Source of the DNA: Syntrophomonadaceae bacterium
Lineage (GTDB): Bacteria; Bacillota; Dethiobacteria; DTU022; UBA8154
Assembly (NCBI GenBank): GCA_007135125.1
Contig: SLJK01000145.1
Location: 1 to 36,415 of the forward strand
DNA length: 36,415 nucleotides
Direction: 5' to 3'
The notes under the pieces were generated by a model. It saw only the letters and a list, made by a program, of their open reading frames with translations. It made no database searches and was not told where the DNA came from. The translations under genes and the position numbers were made by a program. Below are positions 22,165 through 24,655 of the stretch, piece by piece. Positions within the stretch are counted from its first letter, which is position 1. The number at the start of each line of letters is the position of its first letter.

Positions 22165-22842
22165 GTGCTACAAGAAAATATTGAGACAGTCCGAAAGAGA
22201 TTAAACAAGGCTGCTGCAAAAAGAGGTATTCCTGTGGAAGAGATAACTTTGGTTGCCGTAACCAAAACAATTCCTGCAGCCAGAATACAAAGTGCTCGGG
22301 AGCTTGGAATTAAGGATTTTGGGGAAAACAGGCTTCAGGAAGCCCTTCCCAAGATTAATTCCCTCTCCCCGGAGATCAATTGGCATTTTTTAGGTCATTT
22401 GCAGACAAATAAAGTAAAAGATGTACTTCCTTATTTTAAATTAATCCATTCTCTGGACCGCATGAAACTTGCCCACGTTTTGCAGAAAGAAGCTTTGAAG
22501 ATTGACAAGGTGGTTGACGTGCTGGTCCAGGTAAATATTGGCTCAGAAGAGACAAAGTACGGATTTGAACCAGAACTGGTCGAAGAAGCTTTGAAGGAGC
22601 TTGTCTCGCTGGATATGATAAAAATTCGCGGCTTAATGGCTATAGCACCCCTCCTGGAAGATCCAGAAGAGTTACGTCCTCATTTTCGCCGCCTCAACCG
22701 CATGTTCCAGAGCTTGAATATTCCTGGCACTGAGATGAAGTACCTTTCTATGGGAATGACCAATGATTTTGAAGTGGCAGTAGAAGAAGGTTCGAATATG
22801 GTCCGCATAGGGACGGCGCTTTTTGGTGAGAGGGTAAAGTGA
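22165..22842 (+). CDS. yggS: YggS/YlmE family PLP homeostasis protein
   Basis: Single-domain pyridoxal 5'-phosphate-binding barrel protein (alanine racemase N-terminal fold) that controls PLP and amino acid homeostasis; no enzymatic activity is established. The PLP lysine lies in LVAVTKTIPA (about residue 34), followed by FGENRLQEAL, WHFLGHLQTNKVKDV, VQVNIGSEETKYG and the phosphate-binding SMGMTNDFEVAVEEGSNMVR with IGTALFGE. Length 225 is typical. It starts with GTG with AAAGGGGGA upstream. In Firmicutes it is usually followed by sepF, which is missing here. Confidence 0.94.
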   Translation: MLQENIETVRKRLNKAAAKRGIPVEEITLVAVTKTIPAARIQSARELGIKDFGENRLQEALPKINSLSPEINWHFLGHLQTNKVKDVLPYFKLIHSLDRMKLAHVLQKEALKIDKVVDVLVQVNIGSEETKYGFEPELVEEALKELVSLDMIKIRGLMAIAPLLEDPEELRPHFRRLNRMFQSLNIPGTEMKYLSMGMTNDFEVAVEEGSNMVRIGTALFGERVK

Positions 22843-22854
22843 GGAGGTAAATGA

Positions 22855-22899
22855 GTGGATTTTCGTGAATTTGGTTTTGAAAAATCGAAGTTACCGTAA
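22855..22899 (+). other. Orphan 14-codon ORF with a strong ribosome binding site (possible sepF leftover)
   Basis: GAGGAGG (22841-22847) sits seven bases before GTG 22855, which opens a 14-codon frame reading VDFREFGFEKSKLP and stop. This is where sepF normally lies between yggS and yggT. The FREFGFE pattern is loosely like the short N-terminal helix of SepF, but it is too short for a homology claim. It may be a deletion remnant, a leader peptide or chance. Confidence 0.3.
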
Positions 22900-22950
22900 G
22901 GAAATTATCGGAACTAACAATTCGATACAAGAAAAAGGAGGTAGAGAGTT

Positions 22951-23232
22951 ATTAACCTTTTTATACAGAACATTGTTTCAGCATTTTTTGATATACTGTA
23001 TTTTTTGATATTGATCCGCATTATACTCAGTTTTTTCCCGGTTAATCCATACGGTAATCCTTTACTCTTGAATGTGATTCAGTTCTTCAGGCAGGTTACC
23101 GAGCCCTTCCTTGCCCCTTTTCGAAGTGTTATTCCTCCGGTCCGTATGGGCGGTGGGTATATGGACTTTTCTCCCATCGTTGCGCTTATAGTTTTAGGAC
23201 TTATTCGTCGTATTTTAATGGGGTTGTTGTAA
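22951..23232 (+). CDS. yggT: YggT/YlmG family membrane protein
   Basis: Small two-segment membrane protein of the YGGT family, linked to cell division and envelope organisation in bacteria and plastids. The first hydrophobic segment (INLFIQNIVSAFFDILYFLI) leads into the family motif LIRIILSFFPVNPYGNP, then VTEPFLAPFRSVIPPVRMGG and a second segment (FSPIVALIVLGLIRRIL). The ORF track begins at TTG 23005, which cuts off the first segment. The frame stays open back to a stop at 22942-22944, but holds no ATG, GTG or TTG there; a full AGGAGG (22936-22941) lies nine bases before ATT 22951 and six before GTT 22948. A non-canonical start (ATT chosen here) or a sequence error at GTT is likely. About 93 residues from ATT. 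Confidence 0.85.
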   Translation: MNLFIQNIVSAFFDILYFLILIRIILSFFPVNPYGNPLLLNVIQFFRQVTEPFLAPFRSVIPPVRMGGGYMDFSPIVALIVLGLIRRILMGLL

Positions 23233-23247
23233 AGGTGGAATGTCAGA

Positions 23248-24045
23248 ATGGGTAGATCTAATAACGAATCGTTTTCTAAATATCCAATATTTGCAGAAAA
23301 CAAGTGGGCTGATAACTTTAAGTCTATGGTAGAGAGCTCATTAGAAAAAAATAAGAAAAGCTGGACTTCTTTTACAGATCCCAGGCAGCAGCAGATTGCC
23401 AGGGATATCTTGAAAGGTTTTCAGGAAGTCAGGGCTATTTTTTTTGGTGGCTATCCAGCTGCGGAGCGGGTAAGAATTTTGATTGCTCCTGCATCTCTTC
23501 CCCCCACACACGAGGAAGATGCTGTTAGCTGTCTTTCGTTAAGTGGGTTTCCACAAGGCATATTGAATCACAGAGATTTTTTAGGGTCTGTTTTGGCGCT
23601 GGGCATAAAAAGGGAAGTGATTGGTGACATAATCCACAGTGGGGGTGAGAATGCTTTTGTTTTTTTGATTCCGGAGATAGTTTCTTATGTAAGGGATAAT
23701 TTACAGAAAATCGGTTATTATACAGTTGAGATTACAGAAGTGGAGATAGATGCTGTACAGGCAGAAATTCCTGCGAAGCGATTGAAAGAAATAAAAGGAA
23801 CGGTTCCCTCTATGAGGTTGGATGTTGTGGCCGGGTTGGGCTTTGGTTTGTCCCGCTCACGGATAGCCCCACTTATAAGAGGGGAACAGGTTAAGTTGAA
23901 CTACCAGGTTATACGCCAACCATCAAAAATGGTCAAAGTCGGAGATTTAATCTCAATAATTGGCAAAGGTAGAGTGGAAATCGCAGATTCAAAGGGAGAA
24001 ACCAGGAAAGGCCGCATCCATTTGCTGCTGCACAGGGTTATGTGA
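23248..24045 (+). CDS. ylmH: YlmH family S4-domain RNA-binding protein
   Basis: YlmH is a ribosome-associated S4-domain protein of Firmicutes; it acts in ribosome-associated quality control of stalled nascent chains, in parallel to or with RqcH, and lies in the division cluster. The N-terminal part contains DPRQQQIARDILKGF and FGGYPAAERVRILIAP; the central part IKREVIGDIIHSGGENAFVFL is a strong family signature; the C-terminal S4 domain covers about 185-255 (MRLDVVAGLGFGLSRSRIAPLI). At 265 residues it is the normal size. The ATG is preceded by AAAGGTGG. rqcH is present in the same window at 30148-31917. Confidence 0.93.
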   Translation: MGRSNNESFSKYPIFAENKWADNFKSMVESSLEKNKKSWTSFTDPRQQQIARDILKGFQEVRAIFFGGYPAAERVRILIAPASLPPTHEEDAVSCLSLSGFPQGILNHRDFLGSVLALGIKREVIGDIIHSGGENAFVFLIPEIVSYVRDNLQKIGYYTVEITEVEIDAVQAEIPAKRLKEIKGTVPSMRLDVVAGLGFGLSRSRIAPLIRGEQVKLNYQVIRQPSKMVKVGDLISIIGKGRVEIADSKGETRKGRIHLLLHRVM

Positions 24046-24160: not shown

Positions 24161-24655
24161 ATGGGCCTTATGCCAATTGATGTTCAGAATAAAGAATTTG
24201 CCCGTAGTTTTAGAGGTTATAATGCGGAAGAGGTGGACGAATTTCTAGATAAAGTGGCCAAGGATTATGAGCAGGCCATGAAAGACAAGTTAAGCCTGGA
24301 GGAAAATATTCAGGAGCTGCAGGAGAAACTGGAACAATATCAGAAGCTTGAAAATACTCTTCATAATGCCATTATTGTGGCCCAGGAAACGGCTGAAGAT
24401 GTAAAACGAAATGCAAATAAAGAAGCGGAATTGATACGCAAAGAGGCAGATAAAGAAGCCCAGCGCACTGTGGAAGAGGCTCATTATAAGGCAAGTCGTA
24501 TCCTTTCCGAACACGAAGAAGTTTACAAACAGGCGCAGATTTTTAAACTCAGGTTTCGTTCTTTTATTGAGGCCCAGTTGGCTTCTCTGGAGTTGGAGGG
24601 TTGGCTGCAGGTAGAAGATGAAGAATCGGAACCAGAATCACGAGATGAAGATTGA
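24161..24655 (+). CDS. divIVA: DivIVA, polar/septal curvature-sensing protein
   Basis: Coiled-coil protein that binds negatively curved membrane at septa and poles and recruits division or growth regulators. The N-terminal lipid-binding domain reads MPIDVQNKEFARSFRGYNAEEVDEFLDKV, with a long coiled coil (about 30-145) rich in Glu, Lys and Gln, ending in an acidic tail. The track starts at 24101, but ATG 24161 follows an AAAGGGGGG site and gives the canonical MGLMPIDV start, 164 residues. Its own promoter probably lies at 24073-24101. Confidence 0.94.
   Translation: MGLMPIDVQNKEFARSFRGYNAEEVDEFLDKVAKDYEQAMKDKLSLEENIQELQEKLEQYQKLENTLHNAIIVAQETAEDVKRNANKEAELIRKEADKEAQRTVEEAHYKASRILSEHEEVYKQAQIFKLRFRSFIEAQLASLELEGWLQVEDEESEPESRDED

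Follow-up and report, generated by a model that had tools for sequence, protein, structure and literature searches.

The window, by which we mean the whole stretch of 36,415 nucleotides that was analysed, belongs to a draft genome of 2.0 Mb in 172 contigs, 94% complete (G000), and an assembly of Dethiobacter alkaliphilus falls in the same family (two of the collected loci, L003 and L032, are one stretch). The frame under study scores 71.9 bits (cut-off 27) with the Pfam family PF02325 (YGGT), over residues 12–90 of 94, and it sits in the ylm cluster, in the order yggS, (sepF), yggT, ylmH and divIVA (Table 1); score and neighbourhood both place it in the YggT family. Downstream of the cluster there is a long open reading frame that we take to be ileS. 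In several members of the family (G001, G005, G006, G008, G023 and G025) sepF adjoins yggT on the upstream side, and no sepF was detected in the 94% of the genome covered by the window's assembly. The spacer between yggS and yggT contains short open frames only, together with an extra AGGAGG right behind the yggS stop codon. The longest open frame of divIVA opens at TTG 24101, but the ATG at 24161 appears to be the better start, having a good Shine-Dalgarno sequence (SD) and fitting the conserved N-terminus.

Table 1. Features in and around the start region of yggT in the window.
Feature	Positions	Strand	Basis
yggS/ylmE (PLP homeostasis protein), upstream gene	22165–22842	+	Open reading frame; Pfam Ala_racemase_N; GTG start, SD −14.5 kcal/mol
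yggS–yggT spacer, short, without sepF	22843–22934	+	SepF search of the window's genome; family comparison
Extended SD AAGGAGGT of yggT	22935–22942	+	−17.1 kcal/mol helix with the consensus 16S tail
In-frame TAG, overlaps the end of the SD and shuts the yggT frame upstream	22942–22944	+	Sequence reading
Proposed yggT start ATT, 9 nt after GGAGG	22951–22953	+	Chosen by the codon-blind caller; in all 64 genomes of the order the homologous site is ATT, ATC, ATG or GTG
yggT/ylmG coding region, 93 codons and stop	22951–23232	+	Pfam PF02325; open reading frame of 93 aa from ATT
TTG, first canonical codon, within membrane segment 1, not a start	23005–23007	+	SD only −2.4 kcal/mol; homology of relatives reaches further upstream
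ylmH (S4 RNA-binding protein), downstream gene	23248–24045	+	Pfam YlmH_RBD, S4
divIVA	24161–24655	+	Pfam DivIVA; ATG 24161, SD −14.5 kcal/mol at 8 nt

The original prediction, made from the letters of the window, was that yggT has a strong ribosome binding site but no canonical start codon. This was borne out, and all of its coordinates proved to be correct. The AGGAGG core of the SD lies at 22936–22941, and from the TAG that closes the frame to the TTG at 23005 there is no ATG, GTG or TTG in the yggT frame. Two codons had been proposed as the target of this SD, GTT at 22948–22950, with a spacing of 6, and the ATT at 22951. The SD energies were computed with the consensus bacterial 16S tail, the 3' end of the 16S being unreadable in these assemblies. 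Residues 2–18 of YggT, as predicted from the ATT start, read NLFIQNIVSAFF... A hairpin is also predicted in which the SD AAGGAGGT pairs with ACCTTTTT (22955–22962) just inside yggT, with ATT in or near the loop; this structure at 22935–22962, which would mask the SD, is weak, with a z of −1.15 (folded in the window's genome only).

To compare relatives, 71 genomes of the order were searched; yggT was found in 65, and the start region could be read in 64, that of G022 being cut by the contig end. Start sites were called from SD energy and spacing only, blind to the identity of the codon. The caller arrived at ATT in 32 genomes, ATC in 14, ATG in 12 and GTG in 2, altogether 60 of the 64, and the other four (G003, G016, G028 and G032) were settled by inspection as ATT, ATG, ATG and ATG, some of them with a shorter spacing, for instance 5 nt in G016. 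The final count at the homologous site is ATT 33, ATC 14, ATG 15 and GTG 2, with no other codon. Four codons thus make up this column, while the adjoining columns mostly hold 16–29, and ATA is missing from it though present in most other columns. The site normally lies in frame 7–9 nt after an SD of −10 to −20 kcal/mol. The 47 genomes with ATT or ATC cover 28 genera and 5 families, and a canonical in-frame start at a functional distance from the SD is absent from the window and from 42 of the 64 genomes. In G044 (L125) and G050 (L111) a canonical ATG or GTG stands one codon ahead of ATC, 5 nt from the SD, and the start of these two is ambiguous or in transition; in three further genomes a canonical codon near the ATT/ATC site has an SD of moderate strength. 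The yggT gene shows the three marks of a near-cognate start, which are the lack of a canonical alternative, a strong SD at fixed spacing, and a conserved site that is exchangeable with AUG. The best explanation, to which we give a probability of about 0.88 from comparing sequences, is that in the window organism translation of yggT (ylmG) begins with the AUU at 22951.

The alternative that survives best, although we consider it quite improbable, is a start at GTT 22948, as a GTG start that has lost its G. The spacing would be possible, GTT aligns with a GTG in many relatives, and GTC and probably also GTT starts exist, as for sigR (PMC5472188). But in the relatives this GTG lies directly against the SD core or overlaps it (GGGGGTGA, GGAGGTGA), and its own SD is essentially nil, about −2 to −7 kcal/mol, which implies that it is not their start; in some genomes stops are found in its place. 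The suggested change from GTG to GTT was rejected as unlikely, since the GTG of the relatives belongs to the SD. Furthermore, GTT fails to match the initiator anticodon at its first and third bases. In vitro, stable pairing is needed at codon positions 1 and 2, with some tolerance of weaker pairs at position 3 (PMC10158994), and this makes ATT 22951 a likelier start than GTT 22948. Of the two codons to which the SD had been said to point, ATT, with its site conserved in the order, is strongly supported, and GTT is unlikely.

About two thirds of the 47 genomes with ATT or ATC have a GTG 9 nt before the start site, and it could be argued that this GTG is the true start, without an SD, and that the window's genome just differs. 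This seems scarcely credible to us, as the GTG lies inside the SD motif, and infC has the same layout of GGAGGTGA and ATT. Stops at or after its position also shut the frame in other genomes: an in-frame stop is found 9 nt before the start site in the window's genome, G037, G040, G042 and G063, and in G023 a TAA downstream of the GTG directly precedes ATT (3 nt upstream). No conservation is otherwise seen in the codons that separate GTG from ATT in the relatives, and TGA is what stands in frame within the SD of G093–G095, members of another family in the class. The distance from SD to ATT varies from 7 to 9, and a GTG or TGA comes into frame by spacing alone (at 8 or 9), which suggests that the GTG is kept as part of the SD and not as a codon, and that it is ATT/ATC that is kept as the start.

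Translation might also begin at TTG 23005, a legal start codon, or at another codon downstream, with the upstream homology being conserved untranslated sequence. We give this almost no weight because of the poor SD of the TTG (Table 1) and because several relatives have no canonical codon at all within 60 nt downstream of the site. The relatives align to YggT from residue 1–4 on, that is from upstream of the TTG, so that a start there would remove much of membrane segment 1, which is conserved as protein sequence in the relatives; that this segment is encoded upstream of the TTG had been expected from homology, and was confirmed. A sequencing or assembly error that hides an ATG or GTG could be suspected in a draft of this many contigs, but is made very unlikely by the relatives, as ATT/ATC has been seen independently in the 47 genomes of the order and in several genomes of other orders, including one assembled as a single contig.

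The same caller was applied to the neighbouring genes and gave ATT or ATC in 1 of 53 divIVA, 2 of 56 ylmH and 3 of 58 yggS genes, which is scattered noise. Its canonical rate on these genes was only 53–77%, probably because their N-termini align less sharply, and the controls therefore bound the noise and do not measure start usage. The motif AGGAGGT-N6-8-ATT is by itself not enriched in the window's genome, with 30 copies as compared to 34 for the reversed control, but among the 30 the copy at yggT alone leads into a frame longer than 70 codons that has no canonical codon either at that SD or nearby in frame. The neighbouring genes and the unenriched motif led us to reject the idea that ATT starts are in wide use here. 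On the minus strand at G000:C21:10259-10274 (L291) a frame of 61 codons begins at an ATT behind AGGAGGT, without a canonical codon upstream, and this may be chance.

The use of ATT, for which the ATT/ATC at the yggT site of the relatives is strong support, had been likened to that in infC, and the likeness is apt, with an SD and an ATT start for infC in 30 of the 30 genomes checked. The relatives showed the odd start site to be real; what they did not bear out is that it is an oddity of one gene, as the trait spans the order and is found elsewhere in the class. IF3 is encoded in the window's genome, which has one ordinary initiator tRNA-fMet (C1-A72, GGG/CCC stem, anticodon CAU). An initiator tRNA with another anticodon, as a dedicated reader of AUU, was not found among the 29 of 40 tRNA loci of this genome scanned by ARAGORN.

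It is likely that the anticodon CAU of the initiator tRNA pairs with the A and U of AUU and is mismatched at the third base, and that the strong extended SD at its fixed distance offsets the mismatch. The YggT protein would then begin with formyl-methionine. IF3 would be expected to disfavour this AUU as it does that of infC, and in this way keep the start weak, and the purpose of a weak start may be to keep a membrane protein that is harmful in excess at a low dose, or at one coupled to fidelity. In Synechococcus, overexpression and deletion of ylmG each disturb the nucleoids and division (PMC2923531), and harm from both excess and loss would be a plausible reason, though this is a guess, for a weak start that holds the dose low. 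We propose, tentatively and at somewhat less than even odds, that IF3 discriminates against the start codon of yggT throughout the lineage, as a second such target beside infC, and that the class in this way makes the amount of a membrane protein related to division or the nucleoid depend on the fidelity of initiation. This would imply that the output of YlmG rises when IF3 is limiting.

To our knowledge, only a few genes have a conserved AUU/AUC start, the main one being infC. In these genomes infC resembles yggT in its strong SD of the GGAGGTGA type with ATT behind it, in lacking a canonical start and in being conserved within the lineage. The spacing of yggT, 7–9 nt, is slightly shorter than that of infC in the window's genome (10 nt), and unlike infC, yggT encodes no fidelity factor that could feed back on its own start. 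The Staphylococcus aureus genes cvfC1 (AUU), ccpN (AUA) and infC (AUA) share with yggT a near-cognate start, an extended SD and conservation within the lineage, but they are other genes and were mapped by ribosome profiling (PMC13009471), whereas yggT is known here from its sequence. In reporters the starts of S. aureus cvfC1, ccpN and citZ gave roughly 10–30% of the output of AUG, and the paper (PMC13009471) says nothing of yggT/ylmG. In Escherichia coli, AUU also limits the expression of pcnB, again a gene different from infC (Binns and Masters 2002, as cited in PMC13009471); according to the citing paper the limitation was shown experimentally, and gene and lineage are unrelated to those studied here. 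The Streptomyces sigR gene also has a rare start, found throughout its lineage behind an SD (AGGAGGTG) and misannotated to an upstream canonical codon, but its GTC has two mismatches to the anticodon and its repression by IF3 has been demonstrated (PMC5472188), while for yggT control by IF3 would be an extrapolation.

Our search of the literature found no report of a non-canonical start of yggT/ylmG, which does not prove that none exists. The gene would join the known near-cognate starts as a moderately surprising case, for the depth of its conservation and for the gene concerned. That the start is kept over 28 genera and beyond the order suggests that selection can long preserve a weak near-cognate start in a gene unrelated to translation. 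Start finders that recognise no codons besides ATG, GTG and TTG are likely to put the start of yggT in the wrong place, or to miss it, throughout the lineage.

Outside the order but in the same class, the start of yggT is ATT in four of four genomes of family f8, one of which (G092) is a single contig of 3.6 Mb, and ATT starts are found in five second-copy yggT genes of family f6. Elsewhere in the phylum, a canonical start with an SD at 5–11 nt was seen in 58 of 64 yggT genes, as compared to 22 of 64 in the order. A tree of 63 genomes was built from the neighbouring proteins and the remainder of YggT, with the start region excluded, and on it AUU/AUC and canonical starts are separated by 4 state changes, against a mean of 14.4 with shuffled labels. 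The tree is unrooted and the count gives no direction, but AUU/AUC is most likely ancestral for yggT in the order (Dethiobacter and its kin), with few replacements by AUG or GUG at the same site, and it is also present in other orders of the class.

Several genomes of family f6 have two copies of yggT (L205, L206, L207, L209 and L210), of which the second often has ATT and the first is usually canonical. In genus g38 of this family (L145, L148 and L149, also L146) the first copy seems to start with a CTG that follows AAGGAG at a distance of about 8 nt, while a TTG lies right against the SD, and this CTG is possibly another non-canonical start.
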